Shown piece by piece: positions 2,740 to 26,632 of a stretch of DNA of 26,725 nucleotides. The stretch is taken from IMG/VR virus record IMGVR_UViG_3300006752_000181, positions 1-26,725 of that record; one strand, given 5' to 3'. The translations under genes were made by a program, and so were the position numbers. Position 1 is the first letter of the stretch, and each line of letters opens with the position of its first letter. Origin of the DNA: a virus. The notes under the pieces were generated by a model. It was given only the letters and a program-made list of their open reading frames with translations, made no database searches and was not told the origin of the DNA.

Positions 2740-5700
2740 ATGGCTGAACAGACATTTAAGTCTCCAGGATTCTTTGAACGAGAAATAGAAATAATTAGCA
2801 GACCATTATTTAGAAATTATACAACACCAGTGGGTGTCATCGGGTCAACACAAAAAGGACCAGCTTTTGTACCAACAACAGTCACTTCATTTCAAGAGTA
2901 CGTAAGAGTTTTTGGACAACCCGAACAAGATAGAGATTCTGCACATGCTGCTGCAGAATTCTTTTCTAACGGTGGTAAATCTCTTACGATGTGTAGAGTT
3001 TTAGGCGCAGGTCACGGATCAAGCTCAGTAAACGCAGGCTTTAAAGTAGTAGGAACTGCAGGACCAGGAGGTGCTGGTTTAAATACTAATAGAGCTTCTG
3101 GCGCAGTTCAATTTATTGTTGCAGATCATACAGTAAATAATGCAGAGCACGTTACACTTGGGCTATTAAACGATAATAACTCGATTACGCTAGCTGCAGA
3201 TCAAGATCCAAGTGATGGCGTCTTAACTACAGGAACAGAGCTTAATGCGCAACTTATTAGAGCAATGATTTTTATGGAAAAAGATCATTCAATGCTAATA
3301 TGCGAAGTAGGAGCAGCTGTTAGTAATGCTGGTGATAACGATGTTGCAACTGCATCATCTTCTAGATTTAAATTAATTATAGTAAATAAAGCTGACGAAG
3401 ATGCAGAAGTTGCATCTTATGTTGTTTCTTTAGATCCTAGCGATGATGCTTATATATCTAAAGTTTTAAATACTGATAGCTTTAAACATCAAGAAAAGTT
3501 ACATTATTTATATGCAGATTTTCCTGTAGATACATCTGTTGCTGATGTTGCGGGTAATAAAGTTGCTATATTACGAGGAAAAGATTCGTATTTAAATTAT
3601 TACGGTGACTTTTCTAGCAAGTTTACTGCAGCACAAACGCCAATGTTTATCTCACAGCCCTACGGTGAAAGAGAATATGAACTTTTTAAATTCGAATCAA
3701 TTGACGATGGTGAGTTTGGTTCAGGAAAATATAAAGTAAGTATTTCTGATTTAAGAGCTTCTACAGATCCTAATGATAAGTTTGGAACATTTTCAGTTCA
3801 AGTTAGAGACTTATACGATTCTGATTTAAATCCTACAGTTTTTGAATCATTTGAAAGAGTATCTTTAAACCCAAACTCTGACAATTATATTGCTAAAGTT
3901 ATTGGTGATCAAAAGATTTATTTAAACTTAGCAACAGACGATGAAAACGAAAAAAGATTAGTTAGAGAAGGAACTTATGAGAATCAATCAGAAAGAGTTA
4001 GAATTAAAATCTCTGATGATGTTTTAATGGGTGAAGTACCTGAAGATGCTCTTCCTTTTGGATTTAGAGGTATTCCTACTTTAAAAACAACAAGCACGCT
4101 TAAAGACGGACAATCAAGCAGAGATGCTAGTTCAAATTATCTTATTGGTATTGACGATTCATCAAATACACTTGTTGCTGCTAATGCTGGATCTAACAAG
4201 TTATTATTATCAGTTATACCTCCATTACCTTATAGAATGAAAGTTACATTAGGAGATATGAGAAAGCCTGATGGTAAGTATTTTCAAACTTATTTAGGTC
4301 AAGTTTTAGGTAGTGATGGATTAGAGTTAAATAGTGAATCTGTTAATACTAATTTACATTGGGGATTAAATGCTAGCAGAATAACAGATATTCATAATCC
4401 TAATAGAGCTACTGATATTGATTCTAATAGGCTAGCAGGTAACCTTGTTAAAACTTTAGGGAAAGTTGTTAATGTTCTAACAAGTGGATTAGATAGTGAT
4501 ACAATAAATAATAATAAATTTAGTTTAGCAAAAGTTGCTTTAAAGGAATCATCTTCTTCTACAGTTTCTGGAACTGTTAGTGATGTTTATTTAGAAGCAG
4601 TATATATTAGAAACGCTGAAGTTTCGAGTAATATTTATGATTCAGCTTCTGGTCAAATTAAAATGTCACTAACACAAGATCCTTTTACAACAGAAGGTGC
4701 AACTAATAGCAATGAAATAAGATTGACTTTAGCTGGTCTTTTAAAAGAAGACAAGGTTAAATTTAACAAGTACAATAGAATGGCTAAATTTACAGCGCCT
4801 ATGTATGGAGGTTTTGATGGGGTAAATATTATGGATAAAGATTCATATTACTTTACAGACAAATCTGCATCTGTAGAATCAGGTGGTCATGGTGTAAATT
4901 ATACAAGTGGTTTGTCTGGAACTTCATCTGGAATGAGTGGTGAAAGATTATCAAACAATTCTATAAACGCTTTTAGAAGTGCTGTTAAGTTAATGACAGA
5001 CGAACTTGTTATAAATCATAATGTATTGGTTTTACCTGGAATAAGAGATGATCTAATTACAAGCTACGTATCTGAAAGAGTTAAAGAGTATGGTAAAGCT
5101 ATATATTTAATGGATATTCCACATTATGATTCTTATGATACTAGAATATTTTTAGATTCAAGTGGAGTAACATCATTAGTACCTGATGCTGATGCTACTT
5201 CTACAAAGTTTAATGGAAAAGATTTAGATAATAATTATGTAGCAACTTATTTCCCAGACGTTACAATATTAGATCAGGGTGACGATTTAGGAGCGAGTCA
5301 ATTTAATCCTAGACTTGTTCATGTACCTGCTTCTGTTGTTGCTTTAGGTGCTCTTGCGAAAACAGATAATGATTCTCAACCTTGGTATGCCCCTGCTGGT
5401 TTTTCTAGAGGCGCTTTAGCTTCTGTTGCATCTGTTGATTCAAGATTAAATGCTGCTGACAGGGATACATTATATGAGTCTAGAATTAATCCTATTGCTA
5501 GTTTTCCCAATAATCAATTTGTTATTTTTGGTCAGAAAACAACTCAAGTAGCTAGAACTGCTTTGGATAGAGTTAATGTTAGAAGATTAATGATTGAGAT
5601 AAAGATGCGAATTGAAAAGATTGCTTTAGGATTATTATTTGCTCAAAATGACGCTCAAACAAGATCATCTTTTATTTCTAGCGCAACTAGAGAGTTAAAT

Positions 5701-5883
5701 GATATTCAGATAAATTCTGGTATTGAAGATTTTAGAGTTATAATGGATGAAACAAATAATACTGACGAGGATGTTGATAATAATAGACTTAACGGAAAGA
5801 TTATTGTTGTGCCTACAAGAGCAGTTGAATTTATAGCAATGGACTTCATTATTACAAATAGTGGCGTAGAATTCCCATCATAA
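2740..5883 (+). CDS. Tail sheath protein 1 (gp18-like)
   Basis: 1047 aa, much longer than T4 gp18 (659 aa). Sheath subunits surround the tube and contract on infection. The N-terminus has SPGFFERE, then the GSTQKGPAFVP signature (KGPAFVP at residues 39-45), a FQEYVRVFG helix and an FFSNGG-x5-CRVLG strand, all typical of sheath domain I. The C-terminal domain has PWYAPAG followed by RGAL (about 882-892), the FGQKT turn (about 930-934), an LDRVNVRRL helix and a final strand VVPTRAVEFIAMDFII, the region forming the inner-core linkages in known sheaths. The middle (about 100-840) holds protruding domains shared with sheaths 2 and 3, for example SDNYIAKVIGD. It is the shortest of the three paralogs and the most likely principal sheath subunit, by inference. 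Confidence 0.93.
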   Translation: MAEQTFKSPGFFEREIEIISRPLFRNYTTPVGVIGSTQKGPAFVPTTVTSFQEYVRVFGQPEQDRDSAHAAAEFFSNGGKSLTMCRVLGAGHGSSSVNAGFKVVGTAGPGGAGLNTNRASGAVQFIVADHTVNNAEHVTLGLLNDNNSITLAADQDPSDGVLTTGTELNAQLIRAMIFMEKDHSMLICEVGAAVSNAGDNDVATASSSRFKLIIVNKADEDAEVASYVVSLDPSDDAYISKVLNTDSFKHQEKLHYLYADFPVDTSVADVAGNKVAILRGKDSYLNYYGDFSSKFTAAQTPMFISQPYGEREYELFKFESIDDGEFGSGKYKVSISDLRASTDPNDKFGTFSVQVRDLYDSDLNPTVFESFERVSLNPNSDNYIAKVIGDQKIYLNLATDDENEKRLVREGTYENQSERVRIKISDDVLMGEVPEDALPFGFRGIPTLKTTSTLKDGQSSRDASSNYLIGIDDSSNTLVAANAGSNKLLLSVIPPLPYRMKVTLGDMRKPDGKYFQTYLGQVLGSDGLELNSESVNTNLHWGLNASRITDIHNPNRATDIDSNRLAGNLVKTLGKVVNVLTSGLDSDTINNNKFSLAKVALKESSSSTVSGTVSDVYLEAVYIRNAEVSSNIYDSASGQIKMSLTQDPFTTEGATNSNEIRLTLAGLLKEDKVKFNKYNRMAKFTAPMYGGFDGVNIMDKDSYYFTDKSASVESGGHGVNYTSGLSGTSSGMSGERLSNNSINAFRSAVKLMTDELVINHNVLVLPGIRDDLITSYVSERVKEYGKAIYLMDIPHYDSYDTRIFLDSSGVTSLVPDADATSTKFNGKDLDNNYVATYFPDVTILDQGDDLGASQFNPRLVHVPASVVALGALAKTDNDSQPWYAPAGFSRGALASVASVDSRLNAADRDTLYESRINPIASFPNNQFVIFGQKTTQVARTALDRVNVRRLMIEIKMRIEKIALGLLFAQNDAQTRSSFISSATRELNDIQINSGIEDFRVIMDETNNTDEDVDNNRLNGKIIVVPTRAVEFIAMDFIITNSGVEFPS

Positions 5884-5910
5884 TAATAGTTAATAAATAA
5901 AACAAATTAA

Positions 5911-5916
5911 TAGGAG
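5911..5916 (+). promoter_or_regulatory. Strong Shine-Dalgarno of sheath 2
   Basis: TAGGAG lies 10 nt before the ATG at 5927 in a 43-nt gap after sheath 1. It supports that start and high translation. Confidence 0.7.
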
Positions 5917-5926
5917 ATTAAATAAC

Positions 5927-8900
5927 ATGGCTGGACAAAAACAAGGATCAGCAAGAGTAACACTAAGAGAAATTGACTTATCACAAGTAAGCTCTACTTC
6001 TATAGAGCCGCAAGGCGTTCCAGCTGCTATTGTTGGTACTTCACATAAAGGTCCTGCCTTTGTACCTAGAACATTTGCCAATATGCAGCAGTTTCAAGAA
6101 GTTTTTGGAAGCATGACTTCTAGAGGTAGACTTAAAAATTCAAATTTATATGCACCTTTAGCTTTTAACGAATGGATGAGAAATTCACAAGCAGGAACTT
6201 TTATTAGAGTTCTTGGTGTTGGTGATGGAAGTTCTGCAGCAACAGGATCTGGATTTGTTGTAGGAAGTGAACAAGTTCAATTAAATCCAGAAGACTCTGC
6301 TAATAGATCAAAAGTATTCAAAAACAAATATGCATCAATAGATGATAACAGAAGAACAAAAGCTACAGAAATAGCAAGAACTCACATGCTTGGTTGCTTT
6401 ATGAAAGATTCAACAGGAAGTACATTTCTTCAAGATTCTGGAGTTCAAACAGCACAAGCAGCTGGATCATTAAAAATAACTTTAAGTAATGATACTCATA
6501 TAACAGATGGAAGTACTTTAAAGTTAACTTTTAATACTGATCCTAACAATTCTTCTACAACAAAAGTAGTCACTTTTACTTTTTCAGACGGAGAAGCACT
6601 AAATGATAATGATAAAGTTATTAAAGCTGATGGTTCTAACGCTGTAGTACTTACTGATTTAAGAGATGCTATCAATGGAACTACTGTAGCAGATGATAAT
6701 TCAACACGTTTAGATGCACATTTAATAGCATCTTTAACAGGAAGTACTTTAACAATTTCTTCTCAACACTCTTCTTTAGGAACAGCAACAAATAATATGA
6801 CTGCTGAGTCTGACATGAAATCAGATGGTGTAGTTACAGATATTAATGTTGGTGGTAAAACAGCATCTGAAGTTAGTCAAACTGTGAGTTTTGGTTCTGC
6901 TGGAAATACTGCTGCAAGATTTGATATAATGAAAACTGCAGGAACTTCTGCAAATGTTTCTGCAAATGAAACAATTACTTTTAACCTAATTGAAAATGAT
7001 GGAGATGCATCACTTACAGAAAAAGGTGTTTCATATCACTTTAAAGCTGCAGAATCTATCGTGATAACTCAAACAAGTGGAGGAAATACAACTGCTGATT
7101 TAGTTACAGGTAAATATGTCATTAAGTCTAATAATAATGTATGGGTTCAAATTGGATCTACACTTTTAGAATCTTTAAGAAATTTAAAAACTGCAATTGA
7201 CCGAGTAGCACCTTCAGGTGGTACAGCTACTCTTCATCAAGGCTTATCTACAACAACATTAGATACACAAAGTACTAAGTTAACTATCTTTCAAAAAAAT
7301 CTTGGTGAAGATGGCAATGCTGATCCTGATGACTCTCCAAATATTACAGCCTTTACTCTGTCTAATATTACACTTGTAAATGCTTCTAGTCAAGCAAACG
7401 CTGTTTTATCTACAACTAATGAAAAGACTAAAGCAGACTTTGCAGCATGTCATTTTTATGGTGGAACAGATAGCTCTGAAAAGAAAAACTTAACAATTAA
7501 GTTAACTGGAAATCCTCGTGTTGGTGATAAATTAGTTATTAGGACTCAAAGAGTTGATGATGTTGATGGATGGCATAAACTTCACTTATTATTTGATGTA
7601 ACCAGAGACGATGAAAATGGGCAAAACTCAGGACAACCAAGAAAAGTTAAAATAGGTGTCGACCTACAGGAAACACTTTATAATTTAAGAAACGAAATAA
7701 TTGACCCTAGCAATAAAGCTGGTATTTCTAGTGTTCATCTATCTTTAGATGTTACAGTTGATGACGCAAATGATTCTTTAACATTAACATATAAAAACAA
7801 TAATGCAGCAAACGATACTTTTGTTGCTGAAGGTAGTGCTCAAGGTGGTTTAAGAGGTGACACGACTTGTGTAGGAATTGAAATGGGTGAATATGCTACA
7901 TTTAGCAATACTAGCGGATTTAGCTTAGTTGGAAATCACGGGCCAAAAACAGTTAACTTTACAGGAGGAGGAGGAGCAGCTGCTCCAGTAATTCGTGGTA
8001 TTTTAATGGCTCCTCAAGGTGTTAAACCAACATTAAATGTTACAGAAGGAAATACTGTAAAAAATAACTATGTATCTTATTCTGAAGCATCTGCTGATGT
8101 TACAAGTAATATTTCTAAAGAAGTAAACATAAGTGTTTTTGGTAATACTACAGGTAGTAATTTAGTTGGATATTCTGTAGGTGATGTAACTAATAATACA
8201 TTTAAAATAGTATTAAATGGATTTCTTAACGCTGAACAGTCTTCTGTTTATACATGTTCTTTTAATCCTCAAGATGACAATTACTTTGCTAAAGTTTTAA
8301 ATACAGACCCAACTAAAATAGAAGAGCTTGGTCATTATTTATACGCAAATTGGGATATTGAAGCTGCTGTAGCACAAGTTAGTAATAGCGGTTTATTAAG
8401 AGGTGGTGCTCCAATAAATGGAACAGATTACACTAACATGACAGGATTTCTTATATCAAAAGATTCTAGTGATACTGATTATGAATATGAAAAGTTTGAG
8501 GGTAGATTTGGAACGGCAAAAACTCCTTGGATAGTTTCTCAATATAACGGAGGAAATGATACGTCAAATAGAGGAACTGATGGTGTACATAAGTTATTTA
8601 AATTACATATTTTAGATGATGGTAGTAGTGGAAATAGTTTATATAGAGTTTTAATATCTGACTTAAGATATGAAAAAGATGATTATGGAACATTTTCTCT
8701 TACTTTAGAAGAATACAGTTCAGATTCTATATTAGGAACTCCTGTTGTTACTTGGAAACAATTAAATTTAGATCCTAATAGTAGAAATTATATCGGAAGA
8801 GTTATAGGTGATAAATATACATATTACGATTTCTCTTCTCAAAAATTAAGAACAAAAGGTAATTTTGAAGTAAGAAACGAGTATGTAAGAGTTGAACTAT

Positions 8901-10483
8901 CAGATGAACTAAAAAGAAATACAGTTAATATCGATGCTTTGCCTACAGGTTTTAAAGGACACGGTTACTTACATACAACTAGCGAGTTTACTGAAGAGTT
9001 TACAGATGGCGATGATCAATTAGTATTTTCAGATAGTTCAAATAATAAAATAAACAAACTTAATGACATAAAAGTTTTACCTCTTTTTTACGTAACATCT
9101 ATAAGTAAAAAAGTTACTGATAGTGTTTATGAAGCTACTAATGATTTAGCTTGGGGTGTCAAGCTAGGTATTAAGAAAAACGTTAATGAAGATACTAATC
9201 CTAAAGAGCACATAGAAAATGAATTCAATAAATCTCTTTTGAGTTGGGCAAAGTTTTATCCTTCGCTTGTTTATAAAGAAGATGATGCTGATACTTTTCA
9301 AAATTCATTCTTTAGTTTAGAAAAGATTAAAATACCTGCTGGAGGTATTAGCAGTGATTTTATTACTTCTTGGGGTCAAGCACGTTATAATAGAGATGGT
9401 GTTTATGGAACAGGTGGTAGATTTGTTAGTATTTCAAAGGATGCAAAGGGAAGTAATGTTAAATATCTTAAGTTTAGATGTTTATTCCAAGGAGGATGGG
9501 ATGGAGTTAATATATTTGACAAAGATAAGTCTGAGTTAAATGGAGCTGCTGCATCTAGAGAGAGTAGAGACGAAAAAGGAACAAGTCAAGTAACAGGTCC
9601 TACAGTTATGTCTTATAGAAAAGCAATTGATGTGTTATCAGATAAGTCTGCTGCAGAATTCCAATTATTAGCTATTCCTGGGCAAAGAGCTTTTTCTGTG
9701 ACTAATTATGCAATTACAGCTTGCGAGACAAGATTTGATGCAATGTTAGTAATGGATATAGAACAAAAGGGAGCAAATAGATTTATAGAGGGAGTTAATG
9801 ACGAAGAATTACCACACGTAGGAAATACGATTTCTGAGTTTGCTGTTAGATCTTTGGATTCTTCTTTTGCAGCAGCTTATTTCCCAAATGTTTTAATAAG
9901 AAGAACATCTGATTCTGCACCTGTTGAAGTTCCTCCAAGTGTTGCAATGATTGGCGTTATGAGTCGTAACGATACTTTAGAAGCACCTTGGGCTGCTCCT
10001 GCTGGTTTAACAAGAGGTACCCTTACCAATTCTATAGACTCAAAGGTTCAAATGAACAGAGAGCTTCTGGATGATCTTTATGACAATGATATAAATCCTA
10101 TTTACGTTCCAGCTGGTCGACCAGGTGAAGTTTATGCATTTGGACAGAAAACATTGCTTCAAAGTGCATCAGCACTTGATAGAATAAATGTTAGAAGACT
10201 TCTTATTGATATTCGTAGAAAAGTTAAGAAAATTGGTGAGAGTTTATTATTTGAACCTAATCGTGAATCAACATTGGAAAGATTTTCTGCATTAGTTGAA
10301 CCAATTATGCAAGACGTTCAAAGAAGAAGAGGCGTTGTTAGATATAAAGTTTTGATTGATACAACAACTACAACACAAAACGACATTGAAAATAACACAA
10401 TTAGAGGCAAAATTTATTTACAACCAACAAAATCTGTAGAATTTATTTCTCTTGACTTCGTTGTTGCAAATACAATTCAATAA
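5927..10483 (+). CDS. Tail sheath protein 2 (gp18-like) with a repeat-built insertion
   Basis: 1518 aa, among the longest for a sheath-type protein. The core is complete: KGPAFVP at 41-47, a FQEVFG helix, an IRVLGVGDGSS strand, a middle domain homologous to sheaths 1 and 3 (FGTAKTPWIVSQ; LNLDPNSRNYIGRVIGD), PWAAPAG at 1354-1360 then TRG, FGQKT at 1405-1409, LDRINVRRL, and a closing strand PTKSVEFISLDFVV. Between about residues 172 and 685 there is extra sequence not present in sheath 1, made of three beta-rich units (annotated separately), probably exposed on the outside of the tail. With the C-terminal signatures intact it should be able to join the sheath lattice. Whether it mixes with sheath 1, forms a separate zone or is a minor component cannot be told from the sequence. 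Confidence 0.92.
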   Translation: MAGQKQGSARVTLREIDLSQVSSTSIEPQGVPAAIVGTSHKGPAFVPRTFANMQQFQEVFGSMTSRGRLKNSNLYAPLAFNEWMRNSQAGTFIRVLGVGDGSSAATGSGFVVGSEQVQLNPEDSANRSKVFKNKYASIDDNRRTKATEIARTHMLGCFMKDSTGSTFLQDSGVQTAQAAGSLKITLSNDTHITDGSTLKLTFNTDPNNSSTTKVVTFTFSDGEALNDNDKVIKADGSNAVVLTDLRDAINGTTVADDNSTRLDAHLIASLTGSTLTISSQHSSLGTATNNMTAESDMKSDGVVTDINVGGKTASEVSQTVSFGSAGNTAARFDIMKTAGTSANVSANETITFNLIENDGDASLTEKGVSYHFKAAESIVITQTSGGNTTADLVTGKYVIKSNNNVWVQIGSTLLESLRNLKTAIDRVAPSGGTATLHQGLSTTTLDTQSTKLTIFQKNLGEDGNADPDDSPNITAFTLSNITLVNASSQANAVLSTTNEKTKADFAACHFYGGTDSSEKKNLTIKLTGNPRVGDKLVIRTQRVDDVDGWHKLHLLFDVTRDDENGQNSGQPRKVKIGVDLQETLYNLRNEIIDPSNKAGISSVHLSLDVTVDDANDSLTLTYKNNNAANDTFVAEGSAQGGLRGDTTCVGIEMGEYATFSNTSGFSLVGNHGPKTVNFTGGGGAAAPVIRGILMAPQGVKPTLNVTEGNTVKNNYVSYSEASADVTSNISKEVNISVFGNTTGSNLVGYSVGDVTNNTFKIVLNGFLNAEQSSVYTCSFNPQDDNYFAKVLNTDPTKIEELGHYLYANWDIEAAVAQVSNSGLLRGGAPINGTDYTNMTGFLISKDSSDTDYEYEKFEGRFGTAKTPWIVSQYNGGNDTSNRGTDGVHKLFKLHILDDGSSGNSLYRVLISDLRYEKDDYGTFSLTLEEYSSDSILGTPVVTWKQLNLDPNSRNYIGRVIGDKYTYYDFSSQKLRTKGNFEVRNEYVRVELSDELKRNTVNIDALPTGFKGHGYLHTTSEFTEEFTDGDDQLVFSDSSNNKINKLNDIKVLPLFYVTSISKKVTDSVYEATNDLAWGVKLGIKKNVNEDTNPKEHIENEFNKSLLSWAKFYPSLVYKEDDADTFQNSFFSLEKIKIPAGGISSDFITSWGQARYNRDGVYGTGGRFVSISKDAKGSNVKYLKFRCLFQGGWDGVNIFDKDKSELNGAAASRESRDEKGTSQVTGPTVMSYRKAIDVLSDKSAAEFQLLAIPGQRAFSVTNYAITACETRFDAMLVMDIEQKGANRFIEGVNDEELPHVGNTISEFAVRSLDSSFAAAYFPNVLIRRTSDSAPVEVPPSVAMIGVMSRNDTLEAPWAAPAGLTRGTLTNSIDSKVQMNRELLDDLYDNDINPIYVPAGRPGEVYAFGQKTLLQSASALDRINVRRLLIDIRRKVKKIGESLLFEPNRESTLERFSALVEPIMQDVQRRRGVVRYKVLIDTTTTTQNDIENNTIRGKIYLQPTKSVEFISLDFVVANTIQ
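6464..6871 (+). repeat. Insertion unit A in sheath 2 (protein-level repeat)
   Basis: Residues about 180-315 of sheath 2. The order of elements is: a leading strand (SLKITLS), strands LKLTFNT and VVTFTFSDG, a helix LTDLRDAIN, a strand GSTLTISS, and a closing Gly-Gly motif (INVGGKTA). Units B and C show the same order. Large marine phage structural proteins, as I recall, often carry beta-sandwich repeats of this layout, with a helix ending in AIN, an LTI strand and an F-x-GG end. The similarity is at protein level only; the DNA is not a direct repeat. Confidence 0.5.
6914..7480 (+). repeat. Insertion unit B in sheath 2 (protein-level repeat)
   Basis: Residues about 330-518 of sheath 2. It has a leading strand RFDIMK, strands ETITFNLI and VSYHFKA, a helix LLESLRNLKTAIDRV, a strand TKLTIFQ and a closing motif CHFYGGTDSS. 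It is longer than units A and C because of extra loops between the strands. The order of elements is what supports the repeat; residue identity between units is low. Confidence 0.5.
7481..7981 (+). repeat. Insertion unit C in sheath 2 (protein-level repeat)
   Basis: Residues about 519-685 of sheath 2. It has a leading strand NLTIKL, strands KLVIRTQ and LHLLFDV, a helix LQETLYNLRNEI, a strand DSLTLTY, and a closing Gly-rich stretch VNFTGGGGAAAP before the sheath core resumes at APVIRGILMAPQG. That re-entry point resembles sheath 3 (DVIMCPQGVFPTL), which helps place the right edge of the insertion. Confidence 0.5.
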
Positions 10484-10516
10484 TTATAGATTAACTTAAT
10501 ATATATTATAAAGATT

Positions 10517-10522
10517 TAGGAG
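10517..10522 (+). promoter_or_regulatory. Strong Shine-Dalgarno of the tail tube gene
   Basis: TAGGAG lies 9 nt before the ATG at 10532. The sequence TATAAAGA just upstream (10507-10514) resembles the T4 late promoter core, but similar A+T words are common across this window, so only the ribosome binding site is supported. Confidence 0.65.
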
Positions 10523-10531
10523 AAAATAACA

Positions 10532-11020
10532 ATGGCTGAAACATTATCAGTTACAGAAATGATACCAAATAAGTTTGAATCAAAAAGAGGAAATAGATGG
10601 GTATTTGCTATTGAAGGTATAGACGCTTTTCTTATGAAGACAGCTAATAGACCTACATACAGTACTTCACCTCAAACTATTAGATGGATAAATAGTGAAA
10701 GACATGTTGCAGGAAGAATGACTTTTAATGATATTCAATGTACTTTACATGATCCTATCGCTCCAAGTGGCGCTCAACAAGTTATGGAATGGGTTAGAAC
10801 TCATCATGAAAGTGTTAGTGGTAGAGCTGGATATGCAGACTTTTATAAGAGAGATTGTCAACTTAAGCTTCTTGATCCTGTAGGAACTGTAATTGAACTT
10901 TGGGATATTAAAGGAGCATTTATTACAAGTGCTAATTTTGGTTCATTATCTTATGACAACGAAAACTTAATGGAAATTTCATTGACTCTTAAGTACGACA
11001 ACTGTGTTCTCCAGTACTAA
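10532..11020 (+). CDS. Tail tube protein (gp19-like)
   Basis: 162 aa, essentially the length of T4 gp19 (163 aa). Tube subunits stack as hexameric rings inside the sheath and form the channel for DNA. Features typical of the family are: an early NRWVFAIEGIDAFLMKTANRP stretch interrupted by loops (about residues 21-41), a middle segment with a GRMTFNDIQCTLHDP strand followed by an S-G-A-Q-Q helix, and a C-terminal beta pair with WDIKGAFITSANFGSLSYD and a final ISLTLKYDNCVLQY strand. These are the alternating strands of a tube/Hcp-like beta barrel. It sits between sheath 2 and sheath 3. It is the only tube gene in the window, although there are three sheath genes. Confidence 0.93.
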   Translation: MAETLSVTEMIPNKFESKRGNRWVFAIEGIDAFLMKTANRPTYSTSPQTIRWINSERHVAGRMTFNDIQCTLHDPIAPSGAQQVMEWVRTHHESVSGRAGYADFYKRDCQLKLLDPVGTVIELWDIKGAFITSANFGSLSYDNENLMEISLTLKYDNCVLQY

Positions 11021-11108
11021 TCAATATTAAAATTTCTATTTATAGATAATTTTGTTTTTTTTGATATATATCATTATAAATTAGTATTACAAAAAGAGCA
11101 GATTATCT
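11021..11108 (+). other. 88-nt A+T-rich gap with a T run before sheath 3
   Basis: This is the longest gap between recognised genes. It contains a weak 5-bp palindrome (11035-11046, TCTAT/ATAGA) followed by T-rich sequence ending in a run of eight T residues, then TATAAATT at 11075-11082, which differs by one base from the T4 late promoter core. A weak terminator followed by a late promoter would fit, but the stem is short and A+T-rich, so both are speculative. Only a poor Shine-Dalgarno (AAAGAG, about 11093-11098) precedes the ATG at 11109. Confidence 0.3.
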
Positions 11109-14100
11109 ATGAATAGAGTTGAAAGACATAGCGATATACCTTCGCTTAAAGGTGTTATTAATCCTAGTTTTAATATTGATACTTTATGTTCTATAGGCGT
11201 TTCTCATAAAGGACCTGCATTTGTTCCTACGCAAATAGCTTTACATGAAGAAGATGACAATGTTAAAAATACATTCGAAAACATTTTTGGATTACAAGAA
11301 TTTAATAAGTTTAAAAATTTAAGAGACGAATATTCTTGTAATGTTGACTCACAAGGTTATGAATCTTCAAGGGTTTGGTTTGAAAACGGCGGGACACAAT
11401 TTTCGTTTACTAGAGTTTTAGGTTTAGGTACTGGAGTTAAAAATGCTGAAGGTGTTTATGAAGGTAGTGGGTTTAACTTGTCAGAGCCTATATATAGAAA
11501 CTCTATTTTAAATAACTCTGTTTATGAAAATCCAAATAGTGTTTCTGGAGGAATAGAAGGATCTGTAAGTTTTATAATAAAAGATATGGAAAATATATCT
11601 ACTACTAATTTAGATCCTTTTAAAAACTACTTAAATGAACTTTCTATTTCAGGTACAAGTTCAAAATTTATAACAGACGTTATAATGTGTCCCCAAGGTG
11701 TTTTTCCTACTTTACATTCTAAAGATTCAAATAATGATCTTACAATAAACTTTAATCACTTTGATCCACAACCTGTCTTAATAGAAGAAGCAAATTTACA
11801 ATTATCTACAAAACAAGCAACATTTAACTTTTCTTCATCTGGTTTATTAGGCTATCCTTTTTCATATCAATCTAATGTTAATACTCCTACTTTTTCAACA
11901 AATTTTTATATACTATTGAATGGTTTATCTAACGTCAGTAATGCTAACAATGTTATTCAGATTACAGAGTTTGATATATTAAGATCACAAAGTAACAAAG
12001 AATTTAAAGAATCACTTTCTAAAAATTATTATTCTAGTAGAATACAAGAAAAAGGCCATAAATTTTATTGCAGTTTTAATACAAATAGAACTTTAAATCT
12101 AAAAAATCCAACATCAAATCAAAACAATGTAAGTATATTTACTGCATTAAAAAAACAAACTGTTGAATCTGCTGCTGGTGATAATATTGTACCTGATTAT
12201 AATGAATTTAGGGACAAATATCAAGTTGCAAAAACTCCTTGGATAGTTTCACAGCCTTACAATAGAAATGATTTGCAAACAAATAGAGTTAATATATCAA
12301 AAAACGTTTATAGACTTTTTAGATTTTATTCTTTAGATGATGGTGAAATAGGAAATAGATTTAGAATAAAAATAGCGCCTAAACAAATAGGTGATATATA
12401 CGAGAAAAGGTTCTCGCGATTTGACGTTTTTATTTTTGAATATAACTTGATTGATAATACATATTCTTTATTAGAGACTTACAGAGATTTAAATTTAAAC
12501 CCTGATGATATGGATTATATTGGCAGAAGAATAGGTACTAAAAAAACTTATTATGATATATCATCTAAAAAAGTTATAACTACAGGTCTTTTTGAAAATG
12601 TTAGTAAAAACGTTAGAGTAGAATTAAGCGAAGATGTTATAAATAAAAAGTTAGAAGTAACATATATTCCTAGTGGATTTGAAGGTTATCCACATATAGA
12701 ATTTAATAAAATTGCTTTTAAAAGCTATCAGGTAAATGATATAACTGAATTAGATGATTCTACTAAGTTTGATAATTATTTTAGTAATATTAATCAGTTA
12801 CCTTTAACTTATAATCCTAATTATTCTATAGATAAAAGTTTGCCTGAAGATATAGAGTATATTAATTCTTGGGGTTCTCTATTCTATAATATAAAATCAA
12901 AAGAAGAAATTTACAAAAATATTATTCTCTATAATCAAAATACTTCATCTAATAGCACTTATCTTTATAAACAAAACATCTATGAATTTAGAGATAGTAA
13001 TGAAAACGATAAACATTTTTCACCTCACTACTTCTATACAAAATATTTTCAGTCAAATAAAACTAGTCCTTCTAAAAATGTATGGGTTGAAGAATCTAAT
13101 TGGTTAAATTCTTTCTTTCATCTAGAAAAAATTGCTTATCCTCAAAAAAGTAATAGTTTAGTATTAACTAATTTATTAGAAAAATCTATTTATATCAGAT
13201 CAGGTAAAACAATAGATAGTAGTTTACATTCAACAGCTTATACAGCTTATAAATATTTAAATATTGACGAAGTACTTGATAGCAATAAAAACTCAAGATA
13301 CAATATAGATTCTTTCAAACTCACATTTGATGTATTTACTTATGGAGGTTTTGATGGAACAAATATATTAGATAAAGATAAAAAGTTTTTAAATAATAAT
13401 GCTATAACTAGAGAAAACAATAGAGAATCAAATACTGTAACAAAAGAATCTTATAAACACGCTATAGACTTAGCAACTGAATTTTCTAATTGTCTTGGTG
13501 ATATATTTATAATACCTGGTATTAGAGATAAAGAAATATCAAAAAAGATAATAAGAATATCTAATGAAGAAGAAAGATTTATTTATTTAACTGATATACA
13601 AAATGTTGTAACTACAGAAGAAATATCAGGAGACTTTTTTGTTATAAGTGATGAAGTCAATATAAATAGAGAAGATACAATAATAAAAAATGTATCTAGC
13701 GGTAAAATAGAATATAGAGAAAAAGTTATAAACAACTATGATCTGTATTATAGGAATTTTAATTTATACGATTATTCCAGTAAGTACTTTGTCCCTTTAT
13801 TGGGTGAAATAATAGATAATGAAAGAAAATTCATACATTGTCCAACTGTGTATATTTCTGGGCTTATGTCACAAACAATTAGTGATCCTATAAATAGTAT
13901 TGACTTTCAATATGATTTAGGAAATGAATTAATAGATAATGAAAACTTTAAGTATTCTGAAGAGTTTTTTGAAGATAGATTAAAAACTTTAAAAGAAAAC
14001 GGTTTAAATATTATTATTGATGACAATTCAGAAGGATTAAGACTTTATACTTCTAATACTACGTTTGGAATAAGAAGTTCCGAATATAGACAACTAGAAT

Positions 14101-14474
14101 CTGTTAGAGCAATAAATCATGTTAAAAAAGTTTTAGAAAGCGAATTAATTCTAAATAGAAACGGAATATTGTTTGATCTAAATTCTAGTACTAGTAACTC
14201 TTATGTTGTTGCTGAAAATAAAATAAGGGCAATAATGGAAAATTTAAAAAGCCAAAATATAATAGAAGATTTTCAAGTATCTGTACCTAATCCTAGCATT
14301 ACAGGCGTTAACGAAGATCTATTAAACAATATATTAAAAACAAAATTATATATTCAGCTAAAAAGTTCTAGAAATGAAACAAATCCTATACAATTATTTA
14401 CATTAAATGAGCTTAGCAAAGAAATAAAAAGTTTAACAAATCTTGCTGAAGATATAAAATTACTTTCTGTATAA
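11109..14474 (+). CDS. Divergent tail sheath paralog 3 (gp18-like)
   Basis: 1121 aa. Its sheath origin is shown by GVSHKGPAFVP (residues 30-40), a WFENGG-x6-TRVLGLG strand, a middle domain close to sheath 2 (YQVAKTPWIVSQPYN; LNLNPDDMDYIGRRIGTKKTYYD), and YGGFDGTNILDKDK, which matches GGWDGVNIFDKDK of sheath 2. The C-terminal domain is eroded: the PW-APAG-RG and FGQKT signatures of sheaths 1 and 2 are missing, and a Tyr/Asn/Glu-rich stretch stands in their place before a helix ESVRAINHVKKVLESELI and a final strand KLYIQLKSS. It lies after the tube gene with a weak ribosome binding site. It may be a low-copy sheath-like part, for example at the baseplate or neck end; that role is inference. Confidence 0.85.
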   Translation: MNRVERHSDIPSLKGVINPSFNIDTLCSIGVSHKGPAFVPTQIALHEEDDNVKNTFENIFGLQEFNKFKNLRDEYSCNVDSQGYESSRVWFENGGTQFSFTRVLGLGTGVKNAEGVYEGSGFNLSEPIYRNSILNNSVYENPNSVSGGIEGSVSFIIKDMENISTTNLDPFKNYLNELSISGTSSKFITDVIMCPQGVFPTLHSKDSNNDLTINFNHFDPQPVLIEEANLQLSTKQATFNFSSSGLLGYPFSYQSNVNTPTFSTNFYILLNGLSNVSNANNVIQITEFDILRSQSNKEFKESLSKNYYSSRIQEKGHKFYCSFNTNRTLNLKNPTSNQNNVSIFTALKKQTVESAAGDNIVPDYNEFRDKYQVAKTPWIVSQPYNRNDLQTNRVNISKNVYRLFRFYSLDDGEIGNRFRIKIAPKQIGDIYEKRFSRFDVFIFEYNLIDNTYSLLETYRDLNLNPDDMDYIGRRIGTKKTYYDISSKKVITTGLFENVSKNVRVELSEDVINKKLEVTYIPSGFEGYPHIEFNKIAFKSYQVNDITELDDSTKFDNYFSNINQLPLTYNPNYSIDKSLPEDIEYINSWGSLFYNIKSKEEIYKNIILYNQNTSSNSTYLYKQNIYEFRDSNENDKHFSPHYFYTKYFQSNKTSPSKNVWVEESNWLNSFFHLEKIAYPQKSNSLVLTNLLEKSIYIRSGKTIDSSLHSTAYTAYKYLNIDEVLDSNKNSRYNIDSFKLTFDVFTYGGFDGTNILDKDKKFLNNNAITRENNRESNTVTKESYKHAIDLATEFSNCLGDIFIIPGIRDKEISKKIIRISNEEERFIYLTDIQNVVTTEEISGDFFVISDEVNINREDTIIKNVSSGKIEYREKVINNYDLYYRNFNLYDYSSKYFVPLLGEIIDNERKFIHCPTVYISGLMSQTISDPINSIDFQYDLGNELIDNENFKYSEEFFEDRLKTLKENGLNIIIDDNSEGLRLYTSNTTFGIRSSEYRQLESVRAINHVKKVLESELILNRNGILFDLNSSTSNSYVVAENKIRAIMENLKSQNIIEDFQVSVPNPSITGVNEDLLNNILKTKLYIQLKSSRNETNPIQLFTLNELSKEIKSLTNLAEDIKLLSV

Positions 14475-14491: not shown

Positions 14492-15328
14492 ATGAATAGT
14501 GATATTAATAAGCCTATTGACAAGTCAGCTTACGAAGGAATAAAAAGAGTTGACGTTATGAAAGAAGATTTTGGAATTGATATACCCATTGAAAGTGTTC
14601 CACTTCCATCTAAAGGTATTATATATGATCCTTCTTCAAGTCTGTATAATAAAGAAACTTTAGATATTAGACCAATGACAGCAAGAGAAGAAGATATTCT
14701 AATGTCAAGAGTGCTTATTAAAAATGGATCTGTATTAACAGAACTTATTAAGTCATGTCTTGTTGATAAGTCAATTGATCCTGATGCAATGATTAGTGGT
14801 GATAGAAATGCTATTTTAACTTCTTTAAGAATTACAGGATATGGAGCAGATTATGAAGTTTCTGTAGACTGTCCAAAATGCTCTTTTACTAACAAAAAAA
14901 CATTTAATCTTTCAGAACTAAAATTAAAAAGATTAGAAATAGATCCTGTTGAACCTGGACAAAATTTATTTGAAGTATCTTTGCCTGTTACTAAAAAGAC
15001 TTTAAGAGTAAAGTTCTTAACTGGTCATGACGAAAAAGAAATGACTATTACTAGTGAAAGAAGAAAAAAGCAAGGATTTAAACAAAGTTCTACAATAACA
15101 GATAGATTAATAAAATCTATTGTTTCTATTGAAAGTATTAAAGATAGAAATAAGATATCTTTATTCGTAAAAAATATGCCTGCTAGAGATTCTTTGGCTC
15201 TTAGAAAATTTTTAGACTTGCATGAGCCTGGTGTTGATATGTCATCTTGGATTACTTGTGATTCTTGTTTAGAAGAAAGTGAGGTTATTATTCCTATGGG
15301 AACTTCATTTTTTTGGCCTGACACCTAA
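14492..15328 (+). CDS. gp26-like baseplate hub assembly protein (T4_baseplate family)
   Basis: 278 aa. T4 gp26 (208 aa) is needed for building the central hub of the baseplate; proteins at this position before the tape measure have been proposed to act as tail assembly chaperones. Family signatures are VPLPSKGIIYD (36-46), DIRPMTAREEDIL (58-70) and a GS-x-LTELIKSCL helix (79-90). Two cysteine pairs, CPKC (127-130) and CDSC (256-259), probably bind zinc. Codons 273-275 (TTT TTT TGG) lie in a run of seven T residues, and a second frame open across this point encodes a further helical stretch (next entries), so the 278-aa product may be only the short form. Family call is good; the exact T4 counterpart is less certain. 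Confidence 0.8.
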   Translation: MNSDINKPIDKSAYEGIKRVDVMKEDFGIDIPIESVPLPSKGIIYDPSSSLYNKETLDIRPMTAREEDILMSRVLIKNGSVLTELIKSCLVDKSIDPDAMISGDRNAILTSLRITGYGADYEVSVDCPKCSFTNKKTFNLSELKLKRLEIDPVEPGQNLFEVSLPVTKKTLRVKFLTGHDEKEMTITSERRKKQGFKQSSTITDRLIKSIVSIESIKDRNKISLFVKNMPARDSLALRKFLDLHEPGVDMSSWITCDSCLEESEVIIPMGTSFFWPDT

Positions 15329-21763: not shown

Positions 21764-22033
21764 ATGCCATTTGATAGATATAAATTTACTCGTGAAAATA
21801 TAAATAGCAAAATTTACGAAGGTATTAAAAAAAATACAATAGATTATAAAGTGGTTATATCAGAATCAGGAAAAAGATTAGACAATTATGCTTTAGAAGA
21901 ATATAACGATAGTTCTTATTGGTGGGTTATAGCTTCTGCGAGTGGAATCAATTGGCCTCTCCAGCTAATTCCCGGTATTGTACTATACATACCCACTAAT
22001 CTTGATCAAATAGAATCATTAAAGCTACAATAA
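21764..22033 (+). CDS. Small baseplate protein, LysM / tail protein X / gp53-like
   Basis: 89 aa. The signature is at residues about 38-76: RLDNYALEEYNDSSYWWVIA, followed by SASGINWPLQLIPGIVLYIP. Such an order (Y...WWVIA, N/I...P, then PG-x-V/L-x-IP) is found in LysM-like tail proteins such as gpX of P2 and, in part, in the W-V/I-L segment of the T4 baseplate wedge gp53. LysM-like modules in small tail proteins mostly take part in baseplate or tube-tip assembly. It lies between two large hub genes with about 10-nt spacing, which agrees with a baseplate role. Whether it is a true gp53 equivalent or only shares the fold cannot be decided here; it is much shorter than T4 gp53 (196 aa). Confidence 0.6.
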   Translation: MPFDRYKFTRENINSKIYEGIKKNTIDYKVVISESGKRLDNYALEEYNDSSYWWVIASASGINWPLQLIPGIVLYIPTNLDQIESLKLQ

Positions 22034-25303: not shown

Positions 25304-26632
25304 ATGTCAAGAATAAAATTTAGCAATAAAAACTTAGGTAAACTTTCTAGCATAAATCTTAGTGACAAAGATAAGAATTCAATAAACGCAATCATAAGAA
25401 AAAAACAGATAATCCCTAAGTTTAGTAAATCTATTTCTAATATATTACTATACTCTTTTTTTAGTTTTAAAGATTTAAAGATAACTGATGTAGAAATTAA
25501 TATAGTTCAAGTTTCAAAAAAAACTAAAGATAAAAAGGTATTTTACGTTAAAGAAAGCATTAAAGAAACAAAAGAAAGAAAAAATATAAGTAAAATCGAA
25601 TTTCTAAAGAGCTCAAGAGATTTTGATTTTTCAATATTAGAAAACGATATAAACAAATTAGATAAAGATATTTTTAATAGTATTAATTCATACGAAATAG
25701 AAAAAGGAAAAGTAAAAGAATCAAAAGAAAAAGACAAGAAATTATCTAGCTCGTATAAAAAAATAAAATATTTATTAAATTTTTTAAATGAATCAAAAGA
25801 AATTATTAAAATTTTTCAAGAAAAAACAATACAAAAAAAGACACCTAAATTAAAGTATATAATTTATGTAAACATGAATAGTGAAGATATAAAAAAAATT
25901 AACGATCAATCTGAAGTTGAATTAAATTTTTCTTCTTATATACGAAAGCTAGATAAAATTATTATTTCTAATAATCAAAAAAAAGATTATTTTAATTTAA
26001 GTTTAAGTGATGAAAACAAAAGTGAAAATTCTAAAGAGTTATTTTTCTATTATTTTAGTAAATTTTTAACTATTAATATTAATGAACAAGTAAGAAAAAT
26101 TTTATATAAAGATACAGAAATAGATAATCTATTTATTTTTACAAAAGAATTTAATCCTAAGATAAAATCAATACCTATCAATATTTCTGTTAAATTTAAA
26201 TTAAACAAGCCAGAAAATAGTAAAAAAAATATTAGTGATGTTTCATGTGAATTTTCTTTTAATTATAAAAACTTAAAATTTAACAGCAGTGATATAGAAG
26301 TTATTAGTAAAGATTCTGAATATGAAAAATGTAATATTACTAGATCTATAAAACTTATTAATAATTCTTACTTTGTAGTATTGGAATTTAATAAAATAAG
26401 CCCGGAAGATTTAAAAACATTAAAAGAAAATTTAAAAAAAATAGATTTAAACAAAGATAACAATAGTTCTAATAAAATTAATATAAAAAAAATATCAGAA
26501 GAAAAAGAAATAAACGAAGAAAACGAGTCTTTTATAAAATCAGATAATAAATCTTTTTCTATTTATATTAATTTTAATAAATTATGCAATATATTTTGGA
26601 ATAAACTTTATAACGTAGAAAGTATAAAATAA
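25304..26632 (+). CDS. Lysine-rich protein of unknown function
   Basis: 442 aa, not recognised. It is extremely Lys/Ser/Asn/Ile-rich, in line with the local A+T content. It can be divided by eye into an N-terminal part with LLYSFFSFKDLKITDVEINI, a long charged helical section (about 75-190, many K/E/D), and a beta-looking C-terminal half (INISVKFKLNKPEN; DVSCEFSFNYKNLKF), ending in a Trp-containing helix CNIFWNKLYNVESIK. There is no signal peptide, membrane segment or enzymatic motif. It follows the hub gene by 10 nt with AAAAGG before the ATG and so probably belongs to the same transcript. A baseplate or fibre-attachment part is the likeliest role from position, but nothing in the sequence proves it. 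Confidence 0.6.
   Translation: MSRIKFSNKNLGKLSSINLSDKDKNSINAIIRKKQIIPKFSKSISNILLYSFFSFKDLKITDVEINIVQVSKKTKDKKVFYVKESIKETKERKNISKIEFLKSSRDFDFSILENDINKLDKDIFNSINSYEIEKGKVKESKEKDKKLSSSYKKIKYLLNFLNESKEIIKIFQEKTIQKKTPKLKYIIYVNMNSEDIKKINDQSEVELNFSSYIRKLDKIIISNNQKKDYFNLSLSDENKSENSKELFFYYFSKFLTININEQVRKILYKDTEIDNLFIFTKEFNPKIKSIPINISVKFKLNKPENSKKNISDVSCEFSFNYKNLKFNSSDIEVISKDSEYEKCNITRSIKLINNSYFVVLEFNKISPEDLKTLKENLKKIDLNKDNNSSNKINIKKISEEKEINEENESFIKSDNKSFSIYINFNKLCNIFWNKLYNVESIK

Follow-up and report, generated by a model that had tools for sequence, protein, structure and literature searches.

Textbooks present the contractile tail sheath as many copies of a single protein, all in identical positions, which raises the question of how a tail is organized in a phage that encodes three sheath proteins and a single tube protein. 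Such a gene set occurs in the IMG/VR virus record IMGVR_UViG_3300006752_000181, positions 1 to 26,725 of which were analyzed here (26,725 nucleotides; hereafter the window). A preliminary description had reported three tail sheath paralogs of 1047, 1518 and 1121 amino acids (S1, S2 and S3), with one tube gene between S2 and S3, and the open reading frames (ORFs), BLAST, profile searches and the predicted fold of S3 all agree with this. The analyses confirm that S1, S2 and S3 are homologous sheath proteins encoded by adjacent genes with one gp19-type tube gene. Sheaths made of more than one protein have precedents in phage PaBG and in Afp; we know of no solved phage tail in which three specialized sheath subunits surround one uniform tube.

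Three homologous sheath proteins and one tube

The three proteins share KGPAFVP at the N-terminus and homologous middle motifs (LNPNSDNYIAKVIG in S1, LNLDPNSRNYIGRVIG in S2 and LNLNPDDMDYIGRRIG in S3), as had been noted before. Pairwise similarity is far above chance level: S1 and S2 match at 29% over 1010 amino acids (BLAST, E = 1e-90) and S2 and S3 at 26% over 996 (E = 2e-46), while S1 and S3 match in separate pieces only (best E = 1e-22). S1 exceeds the curated Pfam cut-offs for PF17482 (37.5 bits) and PF04984 (33.6 bits) and matches the PHROG tail-sheath family phrog_23 (E = 3.5e-56); sheath domains were matched in 23-24 of 25 S1 homologs. S2 is above the cut-off for PF17482 (30.5 bits), sub-threshold for PF04984 (15 bits), and also matches phrog_23 (E = 8.2e-41). 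The tube protein matches phrog_4542 (E = 9.6e-28) and, below the cut-off, PF06841 (E = 1.2e-5). S3 has no Pfam or PHROG match, and 26 aligned S3 homologs matched no sheath family in either collection; S3 is homologous to S2 both by BLAST and by profile comparison.

An AlphaFold2 model of S3 based on 26 homologs has a mean predicted local distance difference test (pLDDT) score of 72.7 and a predicted template modeling (pTM) score of 0.80. The best 50 rows of its comparison with the PDB are all sheath or contractile-tail entries (Z 17.6-26.2), the matches listed including the variant sheath of Klebsiella phage KP1 (Z 26.2 over 450 residues), pyocin R2 (Z 23.6 over 318 residues), T4 gp18 (3j2m; Z 21.7 over 425 residues) and the Afp and PVC sheaths (Z ~21); Foldseek gave E = 7e-12. 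S3 is thus predicted to have a sheath fold although it is invisible to sequence families. The preliminary description would have been refuted if two of the three lacked that fold; this is not the case, S1 and S2 being recognized as sheaths by their profiles and S3 by structure prediction. Since S3-like sheath relatives escape family models, some phages counted as having a single sheath may have more.

Distribution of the sheath genes

Protein-guided scans of IMG/VR recovered ~230 loci (designated by L numbers), and 135 distinct tube loci were scored for their neighbors. Where a distinct locus extends far enough upstream, S1 followed by S2 always precedes the tube gene (79/79). Among 100 loci long enough to include the following gene, 53 have S3 between the tube gene and a baseplate hub gene, and 47 have the hub gene without S3, its place being empty or occupied by small ORFs. 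The phage lineage is uncultured, mostly marine and widespread; S1 and S2 are always kept, and S3 is found in one branch.

Complete S3 homologs number 56 distinct sequences. Those of the main clade are nearly all open, at 1042-1231 amino acids, the exception being a 276-amino-acid fragment ORF in L053. A second, more distant S3 set (L226-L234) is always located between the tube and hub genes. Given the 56 homologs and the fixed position, we rejected the idea that S3 is an oddity unique to the window. No second tube gene was found by protein or PF06841 search in the window, in 10 related contigs (102-236 kb) or in two phage records (190 and 484 kb), and a hidden second tube gene was rejected. 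In the 102-236 kb contigs, sheath-like genes are confined to the cluster and number three or two, or fewer where the contig starts inside the cluster. In two-sheath genomes, the S3 profile matched only the S1 and S2 genes of those contigs.

Some loci depart from these patterns. L114, L125, L129, L130 and L131 have 1.7-4 kb of small ORFs between the tube and hub genes, where others have S3. S1 is split over two ORFs in L226 (7371-10122) and L227 (3476-6363) by a frame change at a different place in each, with continuous homology; these two of the 79 loci probably contain sequencing or assembly errors. L239, L240 and L241 carry the S1-S2-tube-hub cluster in contigs assigned to Flavobacteriales, Methylococcaceae and Halobacteriovorax; these host calls are unsafe because the contigs were assigned by binning.

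Order of the duplications

A tree of the three proteins with related sheaths had been proposed as a way to date the duplications. Three such trees were constructed, a mixture model being used for the second and third, and all agree. S1 forms one clade (100/100 in both mixture-model trees), and S2 and S3 together form another in all three trees. Within the latter, S3 is one clade (100/100) that includes L226-L234, whose S3 genes were therefore rejected as an independent duplication, and its sister group is S2 from the same phage branch (99/98 in one mixture-model tree, 100/100 in the other). BLAST agrees with the trees in placing S3 nearer to S2 than to S1. The split between S1 and S2 is younger than the parting from the sheaths of Microcystis phage Mel-JY01, Flavobacterium phage immuto and phage LR756508, and so follows the divergence from single-sheath relatives; S3 is placed as having a single origin, from S2. 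The exact position of S3 needs caution because its rows are long and composition-biased.

LR756508 (L005, 484 kb) itself has two sheath genes of 824 amino acids each (7464-9938 and 10953-13427). Its sheaths group with single-sheath relatives (98/92; LR756508a is a long branch), and the pair was accordingly judged apparently separate from the duplication that produced S1 and S2.

Sequence constraint and loss of sheath motifs in S3

Across 12 three-sheath genomes, mean pairwise identity is 57.3% for S1, 57.2% for the S2 core, 29.7% for S3 and 80.8% for the tube protein. Individual pairs show the same ranking of S3, apart from L058 and L059 (see below), with S2 at 85% and S3 at 56% between L227 and L231, and S1 at 68%, S2 at 67% and S3 at 47% between the window and L009; tube values of 23-24% in two pairs came from wrongly chosen ORFs and were left out. 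At 106 positions conserved in both S1 and S2, retention in S3 is high in the N-terminal part (74%) and the middle domain (77%) and low in the core (28%) and the C-terminal domain (36%). APAG and GQKT are each present in 88/88 S1, 88/88 S2 and 0/50 main-clade S3 proteins, and NVRR in 88/88, 88/88 and 1/50; the middle motif GG[FWYS]DG is kept in 49/50 S3. The extended motifs lost in S3, PWxAPAGxxR and GQKT...ALDRxNVRR, are mostly matched in T4 and cyanophage P-HM2. The set of residues that S1 and S2 keep and S3 loses names candidates for roles in the lattice, in contraction and at the sheath ends. The C-terminus of S3 had been described as eroded, which holds for the conserved core and C-terminal residues; the domain itself was not lost, the predicted sheath-like fold spanning from near the start to residue ~1088 in the PDB alignments.

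The termini differ as well. S1 and S2 have conserved N- and C-terminal arms specific to each paralog; at the N-terminus, the first 18 residues of S1 and residues 8-20 of S2 are strongly conserved and mutually different, and the terminal arms of S3 are unconserved. The combined content of G, A, S, T, V and D is 47% in S1, 47% in S2 and 36% in S3. In one close pair, the ratio of nonsynonymous to synonymous substitution rates (dN/dS) of S3 is 0.235, indicating purifying selection; together with the open state of nearly every complete main-clade copy, this disfavors a pseudogene.

Comparison with known systems

The Pseudomonas phage PaBG has two paralogous sheath proteins that arose by gene duplication, reported as having occurred within the PaBG lineage, and both occur in the virion (PMC7412058, Table 1, bands 4 and 5, citing Kurochkina 2018). 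The lineage studied here resembles PaBG in encoding two sheath paralogs in one phage. The PaBG sheaths are ~58 kDa, their genes (gp76, gp213) are far apart and a third paralog is unreported, whereas in the window the genes are adjacent, the sheaths have 1047-1518 amino acids and a third paralog is present; in the tree, the S1-S3 clade does not include PaBG gp213. The extracellular contractile injection systems (eCIS) Afp and PVC combine three sheath proteins, Afp2, Afp3 and Afp4, in one machine (PMC12961389, PMC9230969). Afp has several tube proteins (Afp1, Afp5, Afp7), in contrast to one tube gene per contig here, so the Afp/PVC trait of multiple tube proteins beside multiple sheaths is absent; the window also differs in being a phage genome with T4-type neighbors and much larger sheaths.

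T4 gp18, other Straboviridae and cyanophages share with the window the core motifs of S1 and S2, the fold predicted for S3, a gp19-type tube and a PF12322 neighbor. They differ in having one sheath gene, and their sheaths lie well outside the S1-S3 clade in the trees. Mel-JY01 (sheath of 812 amino acids), immuto (709) and Rhodothermus phage RM378 have the nearest tube proteins (38-49% identical) and the nearest sheaths, with a single sheath of 709-812 amino acids; Mel-JY01 and immuto also have the sheath-tube-hub order of the window. The window and RM378 tube proteins are 38% identical, and RM378 is the sole Far-T4 isolate according to PMC13037479, so the lineage is probably Far-T4-like; the gene for the major capsid protein gp23, by which Far-T4 phages cluster with RM378, lies outside the window. 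We found no phage with three sheath genes in the open-access literature; a two-sheath phage (PaBG) and three-sheath systems (Afp/PVC) were known already, and a third sheath in a phage would be new.

Proposed tail architecture

Taking the computed homology, synteny, order of duplications, equal S1 and S2 rates, S3 motif loss and S3 sheath fold together, we lean toward a tail in which S1 and S2 would share the wall around one kind of tube and S3 would be an end-located or an adaptor/assembly sheath subunit. The tail would be of the T4 contractile type, its wall built from two co-evolving paralogs, both of which would fill it in bulk, either as mixed or alternating subunits or as two long zones. 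A shared wall is suggested by the obligate co-occurrence of S1 and S2, their equal rates, full motif retention, their own arms and the precedent of PaBG. S3, freed from the constraints of a repeating, contracting lattice, would occupy one sheath end in few copies, as a baseplate-proximal first ring or a neck-proximal last ring; alternatively, it may act as an adaptor or assembly factor. In phage phiKp24, the mesh that joins one ring of the lattice to the next is made by the N- and C-terminal extensions of the sheath protein (PMC9700779), and in AlgoCIS the end layers, proximal and distal, show sheath termini in differing conformations (PMC8894135). An end position for S3 is suggested by its loss of lattice motifs and arms, its retained middle domain and the analogy with AlgoCIS. 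A more specific version, which we hold only tentatively, would have S1 and S2 alternating in a heteromeric wall, within or between rings, through handshakes of their paralog-specific arms; S3 would then be specialized for an end ring, retaining the fold while standing outside the repeating lattice.

Since S3 has lost residues common to ordinary sheaths, a division of labor among the three copies is probable. The preliminary description had likewise argued for distinct roles rather than redundancy, and evolution backs this part of its claim (retention of S1 and S2 throughout, separate clades, arms of their own, motif loss in S3); the particular assignments (mixed lattice, zones, end ring) go beyond what sequence can show.

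Several observations weigh against the shared wall with S3 at an end. Two separate zones would likewise account for the matched rates of S1 and S2. The end position rests on lost lattice motifs and on analogy, and S3 could instead serve in assembly and be missing from virions. In the 47 loci without S3, its role must be dispensable or filled otherwise. The rate of S3 is not raised in every pair (L058 and L059 share 67% in S3 and 65% in S1), and its biased amino-acid composition could affect its place in the trees.

Among the alternatives, a zoned tail, with S1 and S2 each forming its own continuous stretch of rings and S3 marking a boundary or end, is unlikely, although separate conserved N-terminal arms could let S1 and S2 each recognize their own kind and eCIS such as Afp are generally known to vary the sheath protein from layer to layer: the tube gene is single, whereas Afp has several tube proteins, and no zone-determining gene was identified. 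Less likely again is that either S1 or S2 is the bulk sheath, the other a minor end subunit and S3 a second minor subunit. The variable tandem domains carried by S2 alone (see below) are what a surface-exposed minor protein might have, but the matched divergence of S1 and S2, their full motif retention and near-identical composition argue against such unequal roles. We consider it equally improbable that S3 serves in sheath assembly or nucleation, or is otherwise outside the mature virion. Loss of the universal lattice motifs, unconserved terminal arms and absence from about half of the loci would fit such a role; the retention, despite long divergence, of a full-length predicted sheath fold and a large conserved middle domain speaks against it, as does purifying selection in one close pair. 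Redundant or decaying duplicates without separate roles, as the fast divergence and motif loss of S3 might suggest, are very hard to reconcile with nearly all complete main-clade S3 genes being open, their fixed position and one origin, and the unbroken retention of S1 and S2.

A variable domain array in S2

The S2 core is constant at ~1000 amino acids, and a single site (amino acids 96-690 in the window) holds 78-839 amino acids among homologs. In the window it contains three mutually homologous domains, A, B and C (hhalign, 95.8-99.4%); up to 5 copies were detected per protein, with none in many relatives (insert of ~80 amino acids), and iterated insert-domain profiles match only the S2 ORFs of the loci. 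A model of the insert is beta-rich (pLDDT 68.8) and has no strong match in the PDB, the best being antibody folds (E = 5.6e-3, probability 0.38). The domains match the sheath of cyanophage A-1(L) over 135 columns (probability 0.99, E = 0.02) and otherwise show weak matches to phage structural proteins. As the insertion site is presumably the place of the outward domain I in T4 gp18, the domains are probably surface decorations. In L115 (5442-9530) and L117 (867-4997), extra length of S2 lies at a second site (window S2 amino acids 1000-1180) and not in a longer version of the usual array.

Features of the window

Features of the sheath-tube cluster. Positions are those of the window; aa, amino acids.
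Feature	Position	Strand	Evidence
S1, tail sheath paralog 1, 1047 aa	2740..5883	+	PF17482, PF04984, phrog_23; own clade
S1 universal core motif PWYAPAGFSR, aa 881-890	5380..5409	+	common to S1, S2, T4, P-HM2
S1 universal C-terminal motif GQKT...ALDRVNVRR, aa 931-949	5530..5586	+	alignment, motif counts
S2, tail sheath paralog 2, 1518 aa, core ~1000 aa plus insert	5927..10483	+	PF17482, phrog_23
S2 variable insertion, aa ~96-690, tandem homologous domains	6212..7996	+	length variation among homologs
S2 insert domain A, aa 179-322	6461..6892	+	profile homology: B 95.8%, C 97.9%
S2 insert domain B, aa 344-488	6956..7390	+	hhalign B-C 99.4%
S2 insert domain C, aa 521-626	7487..7804	+	profile homology to A, B
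S2 universal core motif PWAAPAGLTR, aa 1354-1363	9986..10015	+	alignment, motif counts
S2 universal C-terminal motif GQKT...ALDRINVRR, aa 1406-1424	10142..10198	+	alignment, motif counts
Tail tube protein (gp19-like), 162 aa, single copy	10532..11020	+	phrog_4542, PF06841
S3, divergent sheath paralog 3, 1121 aa	11109..14474	+	BLAST to S2; AlphaFold2 model; PDB matches
S3 stretch aligned to PWxAPAG, motif lost	13887..13916	+	APAG 0/50 S3
S3 stretch aligned to GQKT...NVRR, motif lost	14049..14108	+	GQKT 0/50, NVRR 1/50 S3
T4 baseplate hub-type protein (PF12322), always next after S3 or, where S3 is missing, after the tube gene	14492..15328	+	PF12322 64.4 bits; synteny

Two further genes were observed in the window. 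A 442-amino-acid protein (25304-26632; 43% Lys, Ile and Asn combined; guanine-plus-cytosine content 0.18) is without a convincing family match. An 89-amino-acid protein (21764-22033) weakly matches the baseplate wedge family phrog_7145 and phrog_15542 and is a candidate gp25-like sheath initiator.

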